From positions 1-64,000 of the forward strand of contig JARLGE010000112.1 of NCBI GenBank assembly GCA_031296215.1: DNA of 64,000 nucleotides. The letters are read 5' to 3'. A program made the position numbers and the translations under genes. Shown here in pieces: positions 39,556 through 48,861 of this stretch. The notes beneath the pieces are model-generated. The model worked only from the letters and a program-made list of their open reading frames with translations, made no database searches and had not been told where the DNA came from. This DNA comes from Occallatibacter sp. Its GTDB lineage: Bacteria > Acidobacteriota > Terriglobia > Terriglobales > Acidobacteriaceae. The first letter of the stretch is position 1; every line of letters begins with the position of its first letter.

Positions 39556-39816
39556 ATGGCATACATCATTGCAGAACCCTGTATCGGCACCAAGGACACC
39601 GCCTGTGTAGACGCCTGTCCTGTCGATTGCATCCACCCCAAGAAGGACGAGGACGGCTTCGCCGAGGCCGATCAGTTATTCATCGACCCGGTCGAGTGCA
39701 TCGACTGCGGCGCATGCGTCCCGGCCTGCCCGGTTTCGGCCATCTTTGCGCAGGACGACTTGCCGGAGAAGTGGGCCCACTTTACCGAGAAGAACGCCAC
39801 ACACTTCGGTCGCTGA
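39556..39816 (+). CDS. Two-cluster bacterial ferredoxin
   Basis: 86 residues. First motif Cys9-x7-Cys17-x3-Cys21 with Cys25 nearby (3Fe-4S or 4Fe-4S site); second motif Cys48-x2-Cys51-x2-Cys54-x3-Cys58-Pro (4Fe-4S). This is the 7Fe/8Fe (FdxA-like) pattern. ATG 39556 has GGAG about 10 nt upstream; the longer frame to 39355 is not conserved-looking. Soluble electron carrier; it could serve the ferredoxin-type siroheme reductase 0.8 kb downstream. Confidence 0.93.
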   Translation: MAYIIAEPCIGTKDTACVDACPVDCIHPKKDEDGFAEADQLFIDPVECIDCGACVPACPVSAIFAQDDLPEKWAHFTEKNATHFGR

Positions 39817-39988: not shown

Positions 39989-40237
39989 CTACTGGATTGT
40001 CTCATCGGGCTCTTTGAAGCGGGGCTCCTCGGCGGTCGGCGAGAATGCCAGGTCCGAAATCCAGCTTCTGGGCTCGCTGAGGGAACCCGAAATCGACCTT
40101 GCGCCGGTTGCGATGGCAAATCGGCCATTGCCGATTTCGACAAACTCCACACTGTCGCCGGTCTTCAGTCCAAGCTGTTTACGCACATGGGGGGGAAGGG
40201 TGATGCGGCCATTGAAAGTGACCATCGCGGAAGGCAT
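39989..40237 (-). CDS. SpoVT-AbrB-domain protein
   Basis: 82 residues. Residues 1-45 (VTFNGRITLPPHVRKQLGLKTGDSVEFVEIGNGRFAI) are a swapped-hairpin AbrB DNA-binding domain as in MazE/VapB-type antitoxins and AbrB regulators. The C-terminal 35 residues are linker-like, ending in FKEPDETIQ. No toxin gene is adjacent, so an orphan antitoxin or a regulator are both possible. Confidence 0.82.
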   Translation of the reverse strand: MPSAMVTFNGRITLPPHVRKQLGLKTGDSVEFVEIGNGRFAIATGARSISGSLSEPRSWISDLAFSPTAEEPRFKEPDETIQ

Positions 40238-40429
40238 TTCTATACCTCTGCCCCTATTCTAACCTTCGCGCGTTGTGGAACACGCGTGAAAATTTCGATA
40301 GCCTACCGGGGTTTGGGTTACCAGGGGTGCTCGGCCGGCAAGGGCATCCTTCGTCCAACGCGGCGTAGCGGTTGAAAGCAGTGGGCCAACTGCAGCCACC
40401 GGTCCGGCAGAATAGGCGTTGCCAGTCAT

Positions 40430-40458
40430 TTGTTTTTTGCGCGACTTGCGGCTATCAT
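40430..40458 (+). promoter_or_regulatory. Promoter of the siroheme reductase-cysG operon
   Basis: TATCAT (-10) at 40453-40458 with TTGTTT (-35) at 40430-40435, 17 bp apart. The -10 is 5 of 6 to consensus, the -35 is weak. The expected start, about 7 nt after the -10, is 40465, which is the A of the leader-peptide ATG. Confidence 0.6.
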
Positions 40459-40464
40459 CTCTTC

Positions 40465-40518
40465 ATGGGACTTTTCACCTGTTGTCGCCACCTGACGCCG
40501 CTTCGCGCGCACGGGTGA
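40465..40518 (+). CDS. Cys-Cys leader peptide (putative cysteine attenuator)
   Basis: Short ORF encoding MGLFTCCRHLTPLRAHG (17 residues), stop TGA at 40516-40518. It has tandem Cys codons 6-7 followed by Arg-His. No ribosome site precedes it, and the predicted transcript begins at or very near its ATG, so it would be a leaderless ORF. 42 nt after its stop a terminator hairpin precedes the reductase gene. The Cys codons lie in a segment (40475-40481) able to pair with 40512-40518, and 40469-40474 can pair with 40530-40535. Known analogues are Cys-rich leader ORFs ahead of sulfur-assimilation operons in mycobacteria. Confidence 0.6.
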   Translation: MGLFTCCRHLTPLRAHG

Positions 40519-40559
40519 CCTGGGTCCTGAAAGTCTGAGCGATTTCCAAGGTTTCTTCC

Positions 40560-40600
40560 AAGCCCGCGATGCAGCCACGCTGCCGCGGGCTTTCTGTTTC
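40560..40600 (+). terminator. Leader terminator ahead of the siroheme reductase gene
   Basis: 9-bp stem 40560-40568 / 40584-40592 (AAGCCCGCG / CGCGGGCTT), 15-nt loop, followed by the T-rich TCTGTTTCT. It sits before, not after, the structural genes, as expected for an attenuator. Confidence 0.7.
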
Positions 40601-40619
40601 TACAAATCGAGGAAAAAAG

Positions 40620-42317
40620 ATGGCCGAAGTTCTTGCAGTCAAGGAATCCAAAGCTCAGCGCGCCGAACGCCTCAAACGCGAGAAGAACCCCTGGGAAGCC
40701 TTCGACGAGGTTCGCCAGTTCGCCCGCGCCGGCCGCTCCAGCGTGGTCCCGGAGTGGGCCTCGCTTTACTTCAAGTGGTGGGGCATCTATACGCAGGGCG
40801 ACGGCGTGGGGGCCACAGGCGGCAAGGGCGGAGAGGGCCTCACCTCCAATTACTTCATGATGCGCATCGGCATCCCCAACGGCATCCTCTCGGCCGGCCA
40901 GCTTCGCGTCATCGCCCAGATCACGAAAAACCACGCCCGCAACCTGGCCGACATCACCGTCCGCCAGGCTATCCAGCTTCACTGGCTCACCATCGAGGCG
41001 CTGCCCGAGGTGGTAGACGCGCTCAATGCGGTCGGTCTTTCGCCCAAGGGCGCATGCGGCGACGTGGTCCGCAACGTGACCGGCTGCCCACTGGCAGGCG
41101 TTGCCGCCGATGAGCTCATCGACGCTTCCCCGCTGGCTCGCGAGATCGCTGAACTCCTCACCGCAAATCCCGAGTTCTACAATTTGCCGCGCAAGTTCAA
41201 GATCTCCGTCACCGGCTGCCCTTCCTGGTGCAGCAATCCGGAGATCAACGACATCGGCCTCACCGCCGTCCGGCACAACGGCCAGGTCGGCTACACGCTC
41301 CGCGTCGGCGGCGGCCTCTCCCGCGAGCCGTTTATCGCGGCGCGCCTCGACGCCTTCATTCTTCCCCACCAGGCCATTCCTGTCGTGCGCGCCGTAGTCG
41401 AAATCTTCCGCGACCAGCAGGGCCTGCGCGAAAGCCGCGAGCGCGCTCGCATGAAGTACCTCTTCCTCAAAGAAGGTTGGGCCGCCGACCGATTCCTGGC
41501 TGAACTCCAGTCGCGGCTCGATTTCACGCTCTTGCCCGCCGTGCCCGAGCGCGTGCCCAACGACATCTTTCGCGACCACGCCGGCGTGCATCCGCAGCGC
41601 CAGGCCGGATTAAGCTCGGTGGGCGCATCGGTTCTTCGCGGCCGCCTCTCCGGCGATCAGTTGCAGGCGGCCGCCGAGCTTGCCGAGCGGTTCGGCAGCG
41701 GGGCGCTGCGCACCACGGTCTCGCAGAACCTGCTCTTCATCGACATCCCCAACCAGAAGACCGCCGAGCTGGTTCGCGAGCTTGGGCAAATCGGCTTGCA
41801 AGTGGACGGCTCTTCCTTCTGGCGCGGCGCCATCGCCTGCACGGGCACGGAGTTCTGCAAGCTCGCCATCACCGAGACCAAGGGCTTCACCCGCTGGCTG
41901 GTAGACGAACTCGAGGAGCGCCTCCCCGGCTTCGATCAGGAGCTCAAGCTCAACGTGACCGGCTGCCCCAACGGTTGCGGTCAACACTGGGTGGCCGACA
42001 TCGGCATCGAAGGCAAAAAGATCAAGCACGAGGGCCAACTCACCGACGCCTACTACTTCTGCCTCGGTGGCGCGGTCGGCCAGCACGCGACCATCGCGCG
42101 CCCAGTCGGCTATCGCTGCCCGGCGCCGCTGGTTCCAGAAGCCATTGAGCGGCTGCTCCGACGGTACCTGGCTGACCGCGCGCCCGCCGAGAACTTGCGT
42201 GCCTGGTTCAGCCGCCACTCCAACGACGAACTTCGCACCCACTTGGCCGGTGAAGCCCTGGCCGCGGCCGAGCGGGATCTGCCTGCCGGCCCCGTTCCAC
42301 ACTTCCTGGCAGATTGA
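40620..42317 (+). CDS. Ferredoxin-type siroheme sulfite/nitrite reductase
   Basis: 565 residues. Six-electron reduction of sulfite to sulfide or nitrite to ammonium with siroheme and a 4Fe-4S cluster. Cluster/siroheme ligands: Cys407 and Cys413 (CTGTEFC) and Cys449 and Cys453 (CPNGC). The N-terminal half contains the pseudo-repeat with TSNYFMMRIGIPNG and TVRQAIQLHWLT. The ATG at 40620 has GAGG 7 nt upstream; the frame open to 40569 runs through the terminator. cysG follows after 10 nt. Sequence alone leaves sulfite versus nitrite open; the Cys-coding leader favours sulfite (SirA-like). Confidence 0.93.
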   Translation: MAEVLAVKESKAQRAERLKREKNPWEAFDEVRQFARAGRSSVVPEWASLYFKWWGIYTQGDGVGATGGKGGEGLTSNYFMMRIGIPNGILSAGQLRVIAQITKNHARNLADITVRQAIQLHWLTIEALPEVVDALNAVGLSPKGACGDVVRNVTGCPLAGVAADELIDASPLAREIAELLTANPEFYNLPRKFKISVTGCPSWCSNPEINDIGLTAVRHNGQVGYTLRVGGGLSREPFIAARLDAFILPHQAIPVVRAVVEIFRDQQGLRESRERARMKYLFLKEGWAADRFLAELQSRLDFTLLPAVPERVPNDIFRDHAGVHPQRQAGLSSVGASVLRGRLSGDQLQAAAELAERFGSGALRTTVSQNLLFIDIPNQKTAELVRELGQIGLQVDGSSFWRGAIACTGTEFCKLAITETKGFTRWLVDELEERLPGFDQELKLNVTGCPNGCGQHWVADIGIEGKKIKHEGQLTDAYYFCLGGAVGQHATIARPVGYRCPAPLVPEAIERLLRRYLADRAPAENLRAWFSRHSNDELRTHLAGEALAAAERDLPAGPVPHFLAD

Positions 42318-42327
42318 GGTCCAATTC

Positions 42328-43689
42328 ATGAGCATGTTGCCCATCTTCCTTAATCTCGCTGGCCGCAACAGCCTTCTGGTCGGCGCCGGCACTGTCGCCC
42401 TGGACAAGATCGGCAGCCTGCTGAGCACCGGCCTCCGCCTGCGCGTCATCGCGCCTGAGGCGCGGCCTGAGGTGCGCCAGTTGGCCTTTGAAGGCAAGCT
42501 CGAATTTGTCGAGCGCCGCTTTCAGACCTCCGACCTCGACGGCAACTTCCTGGTTATCGCCGCCACCGATGCTCCCGACGTGAATGCGGCCGTCTATCGT
42601 GGCTGCGTCGAGCGCAATATCCTGTCGAACAGCGTCGACGACATTCCCAACTGCGATTTTTTCTTCGGCTCCGTCGTCAGCCGCGGCAAGCTGCAGATCG
42701 CCATCTCAACCAGCGGCGAAAGCCCCGCCGTGGCCCAGCGCCTGCGCCGCGAGATCGATGCGCAACTGCCCGACGATCTCGGCGAGTGGCTTGAGAATCT
42801 GGGTGCGCTGCGCCGCGAGGTTCTCGGCATTCATCCCCGCGGCGAGGCGCGCAAGGCGCTTTTGCATCAACTGGCCCAGCGTCCGCACTGCGCATCCGCA
42901 ACCTGCCCGTCGCGCAAGTTGGCGCATGCGCCGCTCCTAGAGAAGCGCGGAACCGTTGCCCTGGTCGGCGCCGGCCCAGGCGACCCCGACCTCCTCACCG
43001 TCAAGGCCCTGCGCCTAATCCAGACCGCCGACGTGATCCTGCACGATGACCTCGTACCCCAGGCAATTCTTCAGCTCGCCTCGCCCAGCGCCGAGATTCT
43101 CAATGTGGGCAAGCGCTGCGGCACAAAGACCATTACGCAAGAAGAAATCAACGCGCTCATGATCGGTTATGCCCGCGCCCATCGCAGCGTGGTGCGCCTC
43201 AAGAGCGGCGACCCCCTCCTCTTTGCCCGCGCCGCGGAAGAGATGGCCGCGCTTACCGACGCCGGTGTCAGCTTCGAAATCGTCCCCGGCATCACCGCCG
43301 CCTTTGCCGCGGCGGCTGCGCTGGGCTGCTCGCTCACCGATCGCATGAGCGCCTCCAGCGTCACCTTCTCCACCGGCCATCACGCCCAGTCCCACAACCA
43401 TGCCCCGCTGCCCCAGATCGAAGACACCACGCGCGTGGTCTACATGCCCGGCCGCGACCTTCGCCTGCTGGCCGCCGAATGGCTCAGCCAAGGCCTGCCG
43501 CCCGACTTCCCCTGCGCCATCGTCTCCCATGCGGGCCAGCCCGATCAGCAGATTCGCTCCACCACGCTGGCCGAACTCGGCGAACTCGCCCCTGTTCCCG
43601 CGCCCAGCCTGCTGATTGCCGGCTGGACAGTCCGCAATACGAGCGCCGTGACTTGCCCGGTTGTAGGCGTGGCTCTCACGTCGGCCTGA
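42328..43689 (+). CDS. cysG: Siroheme synthase CysG (trifunctional)
   Basis: 453 residues, close to E. coli CysG length. Residues 1-110: NAD-dependent precorrin-2 dehydrogenase (LVGAGTVALDKIGSLLSTGLRLRVIAPE), then the dimerisation/ferrochelatase segment to about 200 (SNSVDDIPNCDFFFGSVVSRG lies here). Residues 210-453: uroporphyrinogen-III methyltransferase (LVGAGPGDPDLLTVKALRLIQTADVILHDDLV; VRLKSGDPLLFARAAEE; EIVPGITAAFAAAA). Supplies the siroheme used by the reductase encoded immediately upstream. ATG 42328 has GAGG about 9 nt before it. Confidence 0.95.
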   Translation: MSMLPIFLNLAGRNSLLVGAGTVALDKIGSLLSTGLRLRVIAPEARPEVRQLAFEGKLEFVERRFQTSDLDGNFLVIAATDAPDVNAAVYRGCVERNILSNSVDDIPNCDFFFGSVVSRGKLQIAISTSGESPAVAQRLRREIDAQLPDDLGEWLENLGALRREVLGIHPRGEARKALLHQLAQRPHCASATCPSRKLAHAPLLEKRGTVALVGAGPGDPDLLTVKALRLIQTADVILHDDLVPQAILQLASPSAEILNVGKRCGTKTITQEEINALMIGYARAHRSVVRLKSGDPLLFARAAEEMAALTDAGVSFEIVPGITAAFAAAAALGCSLTDRMSASSVTFSTGHHAQSHNHAPLPQIEDTTRVVYMPGRDLRLLAAEWLSQGLPPDFPCAIVSHAGQPDQQIRSTTLAELGELAPVPAPSLLIAGWTVRNTSAVTCPVVGVALTSA

Positions 43690-43836
43690 GCTTCCAATCT
43701 ACAGTTGGCAGTGGAGCCAATGCAGCTCAATCAGAACATTTGGTGGCGCACTCCCGCGCTGACGCCGACAATTGCGCATGCTGGCCGCAGGCACCGGCAC
43801 GTCGGAGTTGACAAATCGCGGCCTCTGGAGTGATAT

Positions 43837-43851
43837 ATGACTGTTGGTCAT
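43837..43851. promoter_or_regulatory. TetR-type operator candidate ATGAC-N5-GTCAT
   Basis: Inverted repeat 43837-43841 / 43847-43851 directly upstream of the TetR gene start at 43854, in the promoter region of the efflux operon. Confidence 0.5.
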
Positions 43852-43853
43852 TT

Positions 43854-44534
43854 ATGAATCGCAGTCACAAGCCCCGGACCGCCACAACCCCTCATCCCAC
43901 CGAAAACCTGCCCCACCTGGCCAACATGGATCGCCGCCAGCGCCGCGCCGCTGAGACCCGGCTGCGCCTCTTTCGCTGCGCTCTCCAGCTATTTGCCCTG
44001 CGCGGCTTTCCCAACGTCACGGTGGAAGACATCACCCAGGCCGCGGACGTGGGCAAGGGCACTTTTTTCAATTACTTCGAAAGCAAGGAACACGTCCTCG
44101 GGGTGATGGCGGAGATCCAGCTTGGCAAGGTGCGCGAGGCCGCGGCCCTGGCCGAACACGGGGAACAGACCATTCAAGCCACGTTCCGCCACCTCTTCCA
44201 TCGCGCCGCCGAGGAGCCGGGCCGCAGTCCCGACCTGGCCCGCGCCCTGATCTCCTGTTTTCTGGCCAGCCAGGCCGTGCGCCGGCTGATTGAACACAAC
44301 ATGAAAGAAGGGCGCAGGATCGTCGCCGGCATCGTCGCCGCGGGCCAGAAGCGCGGCGAAATTGATCCCCGCCTGAAGAAGGAAAAGGTGGCCATCCAGG
44401 TCCTCCAGGCGTTCATGGGAACCGTCCTGTTTTGGTCTTTGCATGAGGACCCGCCTCTCGACGCATGGATCGAAGACAGCTTTCAACATTTCTGGAGAGG
44501 CGTCGCTCTCTCCGGAGAAAAGCAGAAGCCATGA
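43854..44534 (+). CDS. TetR-family regulator of the efflux operon
   Basis: 226 residues from ATG 43854. The TetR helix-turn-helix (about 38-75): FALRGFPNVTVEDITQAADVGKGTFFNYFESKEHVL. The C-terminal ligand domain is variable. An in-frame ATG at 43926 (MDRRQRRAAETR) may be the true start, since the first 24 residues are disordered-looking and no ribosome site precedes 43854. Its stop overlaps the TolC start (ATGA). By analogy with CecR and ybhGFSR it should repress the genes that follow. Confidence 0.9.
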   Translation: MNRSHKPRTATTPHPTENLPHLANMDRRQRRAAETRLRLFRCALQLFALRGFPNVTVEDITQAADVGKGTFFNYFESKEHVLGVMAEIQLGKVREAAALAEHGEQTIQATFRHLFHRAAEEPGRSPDLARALISCFLASQAVRRLIEHNMKEGRRIVAGIVAAGQKRGEIDPRLKKEKVAIQVLQAFMGTVLFWSLHEDPPLDAWIEDSFQHFWRGVALSGEKQKP

Positions 44535-45880
44535 GAATCCGTTTTCGCAACTTCGTTGTTCTTTTCTCGGCAGCCGTAGCGCTGGGCTCAGCGCTGACTA
44601 GCCCGGCCCGCGCCCAGCAGCCGCCCCTGCGCCTCACGCTCCAGGACGCAATTCAAAAGGCCCTCCAGGCCAACCTCAGCGTACTGGTGGGCGCAACCAG
44701 GGTTGAAGAAGCCCAAGGCACGCGGGCGCGCCGCGCCTCCGCCGCGCTGCTTCCACGCATCAGCGCCGAGAGCTACGCCAATGCCCAGAACCGCGACCTG
44801 CAAGCCTTCGGACTGTCTCTACCCGGCGTTCCCACTACAGTTGGCCCGTTTTCCAACTACGACTTCCGCCTCTACGCACAGCAGAACATCGTCGATCTGG
44901 AGAGTCGCAGAAACTTGAAGGCCAGCGACCGCGCCATCGATGCCGGCAAACTGGACCTCCAGGACGCGCGCGATCTGATCGTCCGCGTGATCGCCGGGCT
45001 CTACCTGAACGCGCAGTCGGCTGCGGCCCGCGCCGCGGCCGCCGCATCCCGTGTCACCGACTCCTCCGCGCTCTTGCAGCTTGCCCATGACAAGCACGAT
45101 ACGGGTACTGCGACAGGCGTGGACGTGCTCCGCGCCGAAGTGCAGCTCGCAAATGACAAGCAGGCCCTGCTCATTGCGCGGAATCAGTCGAAACAATCCT
45201 TGCTGGCCCTGGCGCGCAACCTGGGCCTCGACCCCGGCACAGCTCTGGAGCTGGCCGAGCCGCTGATCTATCGTCCTCTGACCGCTTCGGAGTCCGATGT
45301 CCTCCTGCCCCAGACGCTCGCTGCGCGCGCCGACTATCTGTCGCTCGCCGCCCAGCGTCAGGAGATCGTGGAGCAGCAGCGTGCCAATCGCGCCCGCTTC
45401 TATCCCAGGCTCAGCATCAACGGCAACTTCGGCGGCATCGGCCGCAGCATCGGCAGCGTCCAGGCCACCGGCCTGATCCAGGGCCAGATCGATTTCACCG
45501 TCTTCGATCGCGATCGCGAAGGCGAGGCCGCGGAGATTGCCGGCCGCCTCAACCGCATCGACAACCAGATCGCCGACCTGCGCCGCGGCATCGACGAAGA
45601 CATCCGCGAAGCACTGCTGAACCTCGACTCCGCGGCCCAACAGGTTGCCGTTGCTGAAGAAGGCCAGAACCTGGCGCGCCGCGAGCTCGACCTCGCCCAG
45701 GACCGCTTCCGGTCCGGCGCAACCAACAATGTCGAGGTCGTCACCGCCCAGGATGAACTTACCCGCGCCGAAGACAACTACATCTTCGCCGTCTCCAGCC
45801 ATGTCGACGCAAAGTTCGCCCTCGCGCGCGCCCAGGGCGACACGGAAAAGAACATACGGCAATATACCTGGAATCCATAG
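44531..45880 (+). CDS. TolC-family outer-membrane efflux protein
   Basis: 449 residues. Signal peptide 1-28 (MRIRFRNFVVLFSAAVALGS, cut near ARAQQ). Two OEP repeats: LTLQDAIQKALQANLSVLV at the start of the first and an AAQRQEIVEQQRANRARFYP helix in the second. ATG 44531 overlaps the TetR stop. Forms the outer-membrane duct for the adaptor and ABC transporter that follow. Confidence 0.93.
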   Translation: MRIRFRNFVVLFSAAVALGSALTSPARAQQPPLRLTLQDAIQKALQANLSVLVGATRVEEAQGTRARRASAALLPRISAESYANAQNRDLQAFGLSLPGVPTTVGPFSNYDFRLYAQQNIVDLESRRNLKASDRAIDAGKLDLQDARDLIVRVIAGLYLNAQSAAARAAAAASRVTDSSALLQLAHDKHDTGTATGVDVLRAEVQLANDKQALLIARNQSKQSLLALARNLGLDPGTALELAEPLIYRPLTASESDVLLPQTLAARADYLSLAAQRQEIVEQQRANRARFYPRLSINGNFGGIGRSIGSVQATGLIQGQIDFTVFDRDREGEAAEIAGRLNRIDNQIADLRRGIDEDIREALLNLDSAAQQVAVAEEGQNLARRELDLAQDRFRSGATNNVEVVTAQDELTRAEDNYIFAVSSHVDAKFALARAQGDTEKNIRQYTWNP

Positions 45881-45933
45881 GCCGCTCGTGCAGAAGCTGC
45901 CCAATTTCGATTCCGAACACGAGGTTTGAAGCC

Positions 45934-46968
45934 ATGAAACGAGCCATTCCGATCCTGATTCTGCTGGCCGCGGCCGTCGCCGCCATCTGGTATTTCTATC
46001 CGCGCTTCGCCAAAAAGCCGGAGACTTTGAACCAGCTCACGCTCTCCGGCAACATCGAGGCCCACGAGAGCCTGGTGGGCTTCAAGGTCGGGGGCCGCAT
46101 CGTCGAACTCCCCATCGAAGAGGGCCAGCAGATTCAGCAAGGGGCTCTGCTGGCGCGCCTGGAAGACGCCGACTTGAAGCAAAGAGTTCGCATCGATGAG
46201 GACACCGTGCGCGTCCGCGAGTCAAACCTCGCGCTCACCCTCGCCGGAACCCGTCAACAGGAGTTGAAGGCGACACAGCAGACCATGGTTGACGCCCAGG
46301 CCGATCTCGAACAGAAGCAACTGGACAACGACCGTATGCAGACGCTGTTCGCCAAAGATGAAGTTTCCGCGCAGGACCGCGACCTGGCCGCCACGGCCCT
46401 CAAACGCGCCGACGCTATCTTCAAAGCGGCGCAGCAGCGCTACAACGAGGCCGTCGAAGGCAGCCGCAAGGAGGACATCGCCATTGCGCAAGCCAATCTA
46501 AACGAAGCCGGCGCCAGCCTCGGCCTCTCGCGCGTCAACCTCGACTACACCGTCCTTCGTGCTCCTTCCACCGGCGTCATCACTGTACGCCAGGCGGAGC
46601 TCGGCGAAGTGGTCGCGCCCGGAACTCCCGTAATCACGCTCGCCGACCTCGATCACATCTGGCTGCGCGCTTATGTCGCGGAAACCGATCTGGGCCGTAT
46701 CCACTGGGGCCAGGACGCGGCCATCACCACCGACACCTATCCCGGAAAACAGTACCACGGCCGCATCTCCTTCATCGCCTCCGACGCCGAGTTCACGCCC
46801 AAGAGCGTGCAGACAAACGAGGAGCGCGTCACCCTCGTCTACCGCATCAAGATCGACATCGACAATCCGAATCACGAACTCAAACCCGGCATGCCCGCCG
46901 ATGCCCACATCACATTGGCCGCCGCGCAATCGGCAGCTCAGCCTTCTTCCGCACAGCCCGCCAAATAA
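45934..46968 (+). CDS. HlyD-type membrane-fusion protein (YbhG/YhiI-like)
   Basis: 344 residues. One N-terminal membrane helix (about 4-22), a lipoyl half-motif NIEAHESLVGFKVGGRIVELPIEEGQQI, a long alpha-hairpin (75-190), second lipoyl half VLRAPSTGVITVRQAELGEVVAPGTPV, and a beta-barrel. C-terminal tail Ala/Ser-rich. TAATG overlap with the first ATPase gene. Links the ABC-2 permeases to the TolC protein. Confidence 0.93.
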   Translation: MKRAIPILILLAAAVAAIWYFYPRFAKKPETLNQLTLSGNIEAHESLVGFKVGGRIVELPIEEGQQIQQGALLARLEDADLKQRVRIDEDTVRVRESNLALTLAGTRQQELKATQQTMVDAQADLEQKQLDNDRMQTLFAKDEVSAQDRDLAATALKRADAIFKAAQQRYNEAVEGSRKEDIAIAQANLNEAGASLGLSRVNLDYTVLRAPSTGVITVRQAELGEVVAPGTPVITLADLDHIWLRAYVAETDLGRIHWGQDAAITTDTYPGKQYHGRISFIASDAEFTPKSVQTNEERVTLVYRIKIDIDNPNHELKPGMPADAHITLAAAQSAAQPSSAQPAK

Positions 46969-47915
46969 TGACCGATCAGCCCCAACCCGCGATTGTGGCC
47001 GATGCATTGACCAAGACCTTTCCCGGCGTGCGCGCTGTTGACGGGCTCAGCTTCAACGTGTGCGCCGGAGAGATCTTCGGCCTCGTCGGTCCGGACGGCG
47101 CAGGCAAAACGACCACGCTGCGGATGCTCGCCGGCATCATGCCGCCCGACGCGGGCCGCGCCACCGTCGCCGGCTTTGATATTGTCCGCGATCCCGAAGG
47201 CGCCAAGCACGCCCTCAGTTACATGCCGCAGCGTTTCGGGCTCTATGAAGACCTCACCGTCGATGAAAACATCCGTTTCTATGCCGACCTGTTCGGAGTC
47301 AAGCGCGTCGAGCGCGAGCAGCGCGCCGCGCAACTGCTTCAGGCCGCCGGCATGGCCGAGTTCCGCAAGCGCCTGGCCGGCAAGCTCTCCGGCGGCATGA
47401 AGCAGAAGCTGGGCCTGGTCTGCGCGCTCATTCATCGCCCCCGCGTCATTCTGCTCGACGAGCCGACTACCGGCGTCGATCCCGTTTCGCGCCGCGACTT
47501 CTGGCGCATCCTCTATGAGCTCATCGCCGAGGGCGTCGCCATTCTCACATCGACCGCGTACCTCGACGAAGCCGAGCGATGTCATCGCGTCGCTCTGCTG
47601 CACCAGGGCAAGCTGCTCTTCTGCGACACGCCCGCGAGCCTCAAAACCAGCATGGTGAAAGGCGTTCTATCCATCTCCGGGCCCGAGCCGCGGAGCCTGC
47701 GCACGCAACTCGAGCAAGCTGCCGGAATCTCCAGCCTCGTCCTCACCGGCGACGGCCTTCATCTCGTTGTCGACAGTGCGGCGCGCCGCATTCCAGAGTT
47801 CCAGGCTTTGTTGACCAATGCCCACCTGCCGTTCGATTCCATTCAGCAGGTCGCGCCCTCCATCGAAGATCTCTTTGTCGATGCTGTAAGCGGCGGAGGC
47901 TCAACCCATGCCTGA
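46968..47915 (+). CDS. ABC-exporter ATPase, equivalent to the N-terminal half of YbhF
   Basis: 315 residues. Walker A GPDGAGKTT with the unusual Asp also seen in YbhF; signature LSGGMKQKLGL; Walker B VILLDEPTTGVDP; the switch position after TSTAYLDEAE carries Tyr where many ATPases have His (TTHYMDEAE). The C-terminal 90 residues are the usual regulatory tail. Overlaps the next ATPase gene by 8 bp. Confidence 0.94.
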   Translation: MTDQPQPAIVADALTKTFPGVRAVDGLSFNVCAGEIFGLVGPDGAGKTTTLRMLAGIMPPDAGRATVAGFDIVRDPEGAKHALSYMPQRFGLYEDLTVDENIRFYADLFGVKRVEREQRAAQLLQAAGMAEFRKRLAGKLSGGMKQKLGLVCALIHRPRVILLDEPTTGVDPVSRRDFWRILYELIAEGVAILTSTAYLDEAERCHRVALLHQGKLLFCDTPASLKTSMVKGVLSISGPEPRSLRTQLEQAAGISSLVLTGDGLHLVVDSAARRIPEFQALLTNAHLPFDSIQQVAPSIEDLFVDAVSGGGSTHA

Positions 47916-48861
47916 GCAGAACTACTCGGTTGTGGTCGAGAACTTGCGCAAGCAGTTCGGCGGCTTTGTCGCTGTCGACAAACTGAGCCTTAAGATAGCC
48001 ATGGGTGAAGTCTTCGGCTTCCTCGGCCCCAACGGAGCAGGCAAATCAACCACCATTCGCATGTTGTGCGGGTTGTTGAAGCCAACTTCGGGCCGCGCTT
48101 CCGTTGCGGGCTTCGACGTGGCCCGCCAGCCGGAGCGAGTCCGCCAGAACATCGGCTACATGTCGCAGAGGTTTTCCCTCTACAACGATCTCACAGTCAT
48201 CGAGAACCTGCGCCTCTTCGCTGGACTCTACAGCGTCCCCTCCAGCTTGCTCAAGGAGCGGCTACACTGGGCGCTGGCGATGGCCAGACTCAAGGGACGT
48301 GAGAATCTCATCACCGGCACGCTGCCCGGCGGTTGGAAGCAGCGTCTGGCGCTGGGTTGCGCCGTGCTGCACAAACCGCCCATCCTGTTTCTCGACGAGC
48401 CCACTTCCGGGGTCGATCCCATCTCGCGCCGCCAGTTCTGGGACCTCATTCACCACATGGCAGAAGAAGGCGTCACGGTGTTTGTCACGACGCACTACAT
48501 GGAAGAAGCCGAATACTGCAACCGTCTGGCCCTTATCTTTCGCGGCAAGATGGTCGCCCTCGGCACTCCCTCGGAGTTGAAGCGCGATTCCATGAACGGT
48601 GAGTTGCTTCTCGTCGAATGTGCGCCGCTAGGCCCGGCGGTTGAAGCATTGCAGTCGGCTCCCGGCGTCCTCGATGCTGCAGTCTTCGGCAATGCGCTGC
48701 ACCTCGTCGTCCTCGATGCCGCCGCGGCCATCCCGCAGATTCAGGCATTCCTCAAGGACCGCGCCATCACCGTTTCCAGCATCGAGAAGATCCGGCCTAC
48801 TCTCGAAGACGTCTTCGTCTCTGTCACCACCGGGCGAAATGCGGCGGAGGCAGAGCCATGA
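47908..48861 (+). CDS. ABC-exporter ATPase, equivalent to the C-terminal half of YbhF
   Basis: 317 residues. Walker A GPNGAGKST; signature LPGGWKQRLAL (Pro in place of Ser, as in the second domain of YbhF); Walker B ILFLDEPTSGVDP; intact switch VTTHYMEEAE. Together with the preceding protein it would form an asymmetric ATPase pair, with the first having a variant switch and this one a variant signature. Confidence 0.94.
   Translation: MPEQNYSVVVENLRKQFGGFVAVDKLSLKIAMGEVFGFLGPNGAGKSTTIRMLCGLLKPTSGRASVAGFDVARQPERVRQNIGYMSQRFSLYNDLTVIENLRLFAGLYSVPSSLLKERLHWALAMARLKGRENLITGTLPGGWKQRLALGCAVLHKPPILFLDEPTSGVDPISRRQFWDLIHHMAEEGVTVFVTTHYMEEAEYCNRLALIFRGKMVALGTPSELKRDSMNGELLLVECAPLGPAVEALQSAPGVLDAAVFGNALHLVVLDAAAAIPQIQAFLKDRAITVSSIEKIRPTLEDVFVSVTTGRNAAEAEP

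Follow-up and report, generated by a model that had tools for sequence, protein, structure and literature searches.

The siroheme reductase-cysG operon in the window, a 64,000-nucleotide stretch of Occallatibacter DNA that was analysed as a whole, is most probably preceded by a cysteine-responsive, ribosome-mediated transcription attenuator of the trp type, which would sense Cys-tRNA through a leaderless leader ORF. We put the probability of this reading at roughly 0.9. The mechanism is the one that the trp-type attenuators define, and the element has, arranged in the same order as theirs, control codons, a putative protector, a putative antiterminator and a terminator. It differs in that cysteine takes the place of tryptophan and in that the leader ORF is predicted to lie at the 5' end of the RNA, with no ribosome-binding site.

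In the proposed scheme, RNA polymerase would begin at or beside the leader ATG. With ample Cys-tRNA, the ribosome would reach the stop codon and cover segment 2, the terminator would form and transcription would end before the reductase gene. With scarce Cys-tRNA, the ribosome would stall at TGT TGT, open the protector stem and free segment 2, which would then capture the 5' arm of the terminator (40497-40515 with 40557-40575, around 40517-40553), and sulfite reductase and CysG would be expressed. If the leader were not translated at all, the protector would keep segment 2 and the terminator would still form. The actual 5' end, the translation of the leader, the stalling and the response to cysteine are presumed parts of this scheme.

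The leader region of the window

As the first-pass annotation had described, a 17-residue ORF with tandem TGT TGT codons follows the hexamer TATCAT, and a 9-bp hairpin with a T-rich tail lies between this ORF and the reductase gene (Table 1). The alternative stems that it had proposed to cover the Cys codons were recovered as well, as three stems folding within 40466-40538. Both the Cys codons and segment 2 would be held inside this putative protector fold, for which the folding z was -1.7 in the window and -1.5 as the mean over 106 loci. The -35-like hexamer is weak, and relatives carry a stronger TTGAC or TTGCA at this place. Judged from the position of the -10 box, transcription should start at the leader ATG or a nucleotide adjoining it; if it does start at 40465, a Shine-Dalgarno sequence for the leader ORF is impossible.

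Table 1. Positions of the features of the putative attenuator and its operon, with the second cysteine leader of the same genome
Feature	Position	Strand	Remarks
-35-like hexamer TTGTTT, weak	40430..40435	+	17 nt 5' of -10; by sequence reading
-10 box TATCAT	40453..40458	+	6 nt 5' of leader ATG
Leader ORF MGLFTCCRHLTPLRAHG	40465..40518	+	17 codons; ATG at 40465, TGA at 40516-40518
Putative protector (anti-antiterminator) fold	40466..40538	+	stems 40466-40475:40529-40538, 40477-40481:40521-40525, 40484-40501:40505-40519
Control codons TGT TGT (Cys-Cys)	40480..40485	+	
Segment 2, putative antiterminator 5' strand	40496..40516	+	last leader-ORF codons
Putative antiterminator inner hairpin, GACCTGGGTC with CCAAGGTT	40517..40553	+	folding; RNAalifold in 33 relatives; 88-94% of cells paired
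Intrinsic terminator hairpin, 9 bp + 5 bp	40560..40592	+	AAGCCCGCG AT GCAGC CAC GCTGC CGCGGGCTT
T-rich tail TCTGTTTC	40593..40600	+	directly after terminator hairpin
Ferredoxin-type siroheme sulfite reductase (NirA/SirA-like), predicted	40620..42317	+	565 aa
Siroheme synthase CysG	42328..43689	+	NCBIfam NF007922, 421 bits, cut-off 400
Second Cys leader of the window's genome	L139:1134-1229, contig C193		before cysD at L139:1345; ...MVRAAQSSSCCRLSNIFDGCPF, then CGCCCGTTGCTGAACAGCCGGGCGTTTGTG

The terminator hairpin has a folding energy of -23.5 kcal/mol (z -5.5), and its 5' arm, 40560-40575, is common to the terminator and the antiterminator. When a ribosome masks the Cys codons, the antiterminator pairing of 40497-40515 with 40557-40575 is obtained. 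In the window alone the antiterminator energy was unremarkable (z -0.4), and at equilibrium the full RNA preferred the terminator even with a stalled ribosome. A working switch would therefore have to be kinetic, like that of trp. The reductase ATG at 40620 is preceded by GAGGAAAA and lies 27 nt past the terminator hairpin. A start at 40569, which would give a longer ORF and falls inside the terminator hairpin, was dropped in favour of 40620.

A scan of the window for consensus sigma-70 promoters and terminators listed neither the leader promoter nor its terminator, because the -35 is weak and the terminator rule admitted uninterrupted stems with loops of 3-8 only. The window gave no Rfam match at the gathering threshold, 40400-40640 gave none at E up to 1, and the leader peptide, a very short query (17 residues, padded with three Ala), had no match in NCBIfam. 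Upstream of the reductase lie an FdxA-like ferredoxin gene (39556-39816, + strand) and, between it and the attenuator, a gene for an AbrB/MazE-like small DNA-binding protein (39989-40237, - strand). The ferredoxin is a possible electron donor for a ferredoxin-dependent sulfite reductase.

Conservation among relatives and use of the control codons

Members of the reductase family occur in 46 of the 60 genomes of the window's family, about 36 of which have a close ortholog, as well as in a draw from the phylum and in 80 named contigs. Nearly all of the latter are labelled Acidobacteriaceae or Acidobacteriota, and they include Terracidiphilus gabretensis, Occallatibacter savannae, Acidipila rosea and Paracidobacterium acidisoli. 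Among 116 distinct regions upstream of the reductase, 107 contain a short ORF with consecutive Cys codons. Reductase loci without the leader are few, and in some of them (L014, L019) the upstream sequence resembles the end of another gene. One reductase reading frame, that of L015 (G044:C11:250899-252563), contains one in-frame TGA. In the 114 upstream regions with enough sequence, which belong to related and not independent loci, an ATG-started Cys-Cys ORF of 8-35 codons was present in 103, as compared with 4.6 expected from dinucleotide shuffles (22 times chance), and the combination of such an ORF with a -10 box 5-8 nt upstream of its ATG occurred in 71, as compared with 0.15 expected (about 470 times chance). 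A -35/-10 pair was scored at 63 of the 107 loci, and the start codon lay 6 nt from the -10 box in 36 of them and 7 nt from it in 19 (55/63 together), so that the transcription start would fall on the leader ATG. A terminator hairpin with a T tail (dG from -9.7 to -30) precedes the reductase in 106 of the 107 loci, usually 20-50 nt past the leader stop codon and close before the reductase start. The comparison of orthologous upstream regions that the first-pass annotation had proposed was carried out on about 110 loci and bore out the Cys codons, the stems and the terminator.

Short ORFs are common, and the window itself has 23 short Cys-Cys ORFs on its two strands, which might suggest a chance ORF ahead of the ordinary terminator of an upstream transcript. 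However, of all these ORFs on the two strands of the window, the 40465 leader alone combines a -10 box 5-8 nt upstream of its ATG with a terminator downstream, and conservation in more than 100 loci against 4.6 expected refutes this explanation, to which we leave almost no probability.

The codon usage of the leaders is distinctive. In 83 of the 107 leaders, the first pair of Cys codons is TGTTGT. Overall, TGT and TGC occur 346 and 140 times in the leaders (71% TGT), and 82 and 1015 times in the reductases behind them (7.5% TGT; Fisher p about 1e-149). This bias is a strong departure for a GC-rich genome and would fit a sensor that is read via a wobble-decoded codon. How sensitive attenuators are to amino-acid limitation is the subject of PMC1183508.

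The codon bias also bears on another explanation, in which the Cys-Cys peptide would itself be what functions, as an arrest peptide that senses metal or redox state, with copper, zinc or oxidation as its signal. Short Cys-rich peptides can bind metals, and redox has been raised as a possible input for the mycobacterial leaders (Shell 2015, PMC4633059). The TGT bias is, however, expected of a sensor that reads codons and not of a peptide, and beyond the Cys run the peptides diverge strongly among clades (MCCACCCALRRTCG, MCCCCVMVSSGAGGLLT, MQTAKNTCCCSAACCCV). Where residues are conserved in a clade, they fall on the antiterminator strand, which indicates a constraint on the RNA, and the regulated genes function in sulfate assimilation. 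We therefore regard an arrest peptide as very improbable, and the codon-reading attenuator is kept as the preferred explanation.

Pairing of the leader end with the terminator arm

Aligned over 33 relatives of the window, the terminator pairs covary, with a score of 0.119 as compared with 0.074 after shuffling (0/500). When RNAalifold was given the sequence of the 33 relatives up to, and without, the terminator 3' arm, it predicted unaided that the end of the leader ORF and the terminator 5' arm pair to form a composite hairpin enclosing the inner one. In this composite antiterminator hairpin, 87.5% of the cells were paired, as compared with 31-54% when the partners were slid. The antiterminator covaries weakly in the window's clade (4 double-change pairs against 1.5; 14/500 shuffles), because the sequence is so conserved there.

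The duplex energy of segment 2 with the terminator arm was modestly better than that of shuffles (mean z -1.07), because segment 2 is GC-rich, and a swap test was used instead, in which the leader end of each species was paired with its own terminator arm or with the arms of other species. Over all clades, the leader end favoured its own arm by 1.9 kcal/mol (permutation sd 0.24, 0/5000). The preference was 4.5 (sd 0.33) when the arm was taken 24 nt wider, and 1.2 (sd 0.24, 0/5000) in the window's clade alone. For the clade with CCCAC arms, p was 0.3 with the short terminator-arm window and 0.001 with the wider one, and the failure of the short window is explained by an antiterminator whose pairing (CUUUGC with GCAAAG) already starts 5' of the arm. 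In the clade with GCCCAC-type terminators (L113-L132), the outer part of the putative antiterminator is made of a conserved CTTTGC close to the leader end and a GCAAAG ahead of the terminator. Sequence and comparison establish, as candidate elements of a switch, the leader, its -10 spacing, the control codons, the terminator and a pairing between segment 2 and the terminator arm that is specific to the species.

The same pairing was seen with a ribosome modelled on the Cys codons. The leader ORF then held 0.66 of the terminator 5' arm, as compared with 0.22 with shuffled spacers, and the hold was above that of the shuffles in 95 of 106 loci. The total upstream sequestration of the arm was 0.69 with the ribosome on the Cys codons and 0.32 with the ribosome at the stop codon.

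A Cys leader could also work on translation or via Rho instead of an intrinsic terminator, with the stalled ribosome exposing the reductase RBS or blocking Rho. The mycobacterial cys leaders, for which no conserved terminator was found when they were first noted, and for which Rho was suggested (Seliverstov 2005, PMC1262725), provide a precedent, and six cysD leaders of the present set have no convincing terminator (see below). At the reductase, however, 106 of 107 loci have the terminator, its pairs covary, the swap tests show segment 2 to be fitted to the terminator arm, and the RBS lies outside the hairpin. Control of the reductase by translation or Rho is thus unlikely, and attenuation at the intrinsic terminator remains the preferred reading for this gene.

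The reductase, the wider regulon and known systems

The nearest solved structure to the reductase is M. tuberculosis NirA (1zj8, E 8.5e-92). The Tyr-Cys pair of 1zj8, which we take to be the covalent pair Tyr69/Cys161, aligns with Y57 and C146 of the reductase, both invariant in 12 orthologs, and in the alignment spinach nitrite reductase lacks the Cys of the pair. The window reductase fell below the NCBIfam equivalog cut-offs both for NirA and for ferredoxin-nitrite reductase. In P. aeruginosa the protein called NirA is a nitrite reductase, so the name also covers nitrite reductases and the genomic context matters. In Paracidobacterium acidisoli, the leader is followed by an operon sir-cysG-cysD-cysN, and a second gene of the PAPS-reductase family (cysH) lies farther downstream. 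A search of the window's genome (assembly 88% complete) with the reductase as query found no second siroheme reductase. From the structure match, the Tyr-Cys pair, the operon context and the absence of a second reductase in this search, assimilatory sulfite reductase is the best assignment on predicted grounds, which bears out the assignment made from the window alone. As compared with M. tuberculosis NirA/SirA, the window protein belongs to the same siroheme and 4Fe-4S family and has the aligned Tyr and Cys, but it is a distant relative and its sulfite activity is predicted. Downstream, at 43830-48861 (+ strand), a TetR regulator is followed by an outer-membrane efflux-like protein, an HlyD-like protein and two ABC ATPases, by eye an ordinary efflux cluster.

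Further leaders were sought at cysD and cysH in the window's genome. On another contig, a cysD-cysN operon with a cysH-like gene behind it has its own Cys leader (...SSSCCRLSNIFDGCPF) followed by a hairpin, and in a relative (L151) CCCSLSNIFDGCTR is kept at the cysD leader. The first-pass annotation missed this cysDN-cysH leader in the same genome, and also the occurrence of such leaders across the phylum. Within the family, several further genomes have a Cys leader and a terminator before cysD (L141, L143, L144, L147, L173, L176, L180, L182). The same arrangement stands before cysH, cysD or sir in several other families of Acidobacteriota (f11, f16, f18, f22, f24, f39, f46, f61), with peptides that are unrelated apart from the Cys run. 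No Cys leader was seen in the remaining Acidobacteriota families examined, where the gene inspected may lie behind another gene of its operon. In six cysD leaders (L145, L148, L149, L177, L178, L188), the Cys run has no convincing terminator within about 150 nt; these leaders, some 300 nt from cysD, closely follow a possible -10 box and are likely to be controlled in another way. Sulfite reductase, CysG and cysDN-cysH, as predicted members of one regulon, form a product pathway that fits cysteine sensing. We give even odds to a broader proposal, that a phylum-wide cysteine regulon of Acidobacteriota is run by leaderless Cys-codon attenuators that arose apart from the actinobacterial ones, in at least two modes: attenuation at an intrinsic terminator for sir and many cysH/cysD operons, and, for some cysD operons, a mode without terminator, translational or by Rho.

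Work by Canestrari from 2020, to go by its title, reportedly concerns cysteine-responsive attenuation by polycysteine leaderless sORFs of mycobacteria. Like the leaders described here, the mycobacterial sORFs have Cys codons in direct succession and stand first in operons of sulfur metabolism (PMC4633059, PMC1262725). They are leaderless, and for the leaders described here a leaderless start is predicted from the -10 spacing. They belong to another phylum and have no recognisable peptide similarity to the Acidobacteriota leaders, and no conserved terminator was found for them (PMC1262725), whereas the Acidobacteriota leader has an intrinsic terminator and a putative antiterminator and protector. 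In uORFC-8-2, a Rhodobacterales motif that precedes cysS (Brewer 2021, PMC8632094), tandem Cys codons of a uORF are likewise followed by an intrinsic terminator, and ribosome-mediated attenuation is predicted. This element, however, is alphaproteobacterial, controls cysteinyl-tRNA synthetase, has its Cys codons usually at positions 14-15 and prefers UGC, while the Acidobacteriota element is associated with sulfate assimilation, has a predicted leaderless start and prefers UGU. Thus, the Acidobacteriota element appears to join a leaderless start of the mycobacterial kind with a terminator of the Rhodobacterales type, on sulfate assimilation. No description of such a Cys leader in Acidobacteriota was found in the open-access literature that the search covered, and this agrees with the earlier statement that no such case had been described.

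The element now has a probable signal, anatomy and regulon, and cultured relatives (Terracidiphilus gabretensis, Acidipila rosea and Paracidobacterium acidisoli) are at hand for direct testing. On this reading, leaderless Cys leaders are not confined to Actinobacteria, and leaderless initiation would be coupled to a complete protector/antiterminator/terminator switch. For the Acidobacteriota, an abundant soil phylum, it would assign 'nitrite reductase-like' genes to sulfur assimilation.
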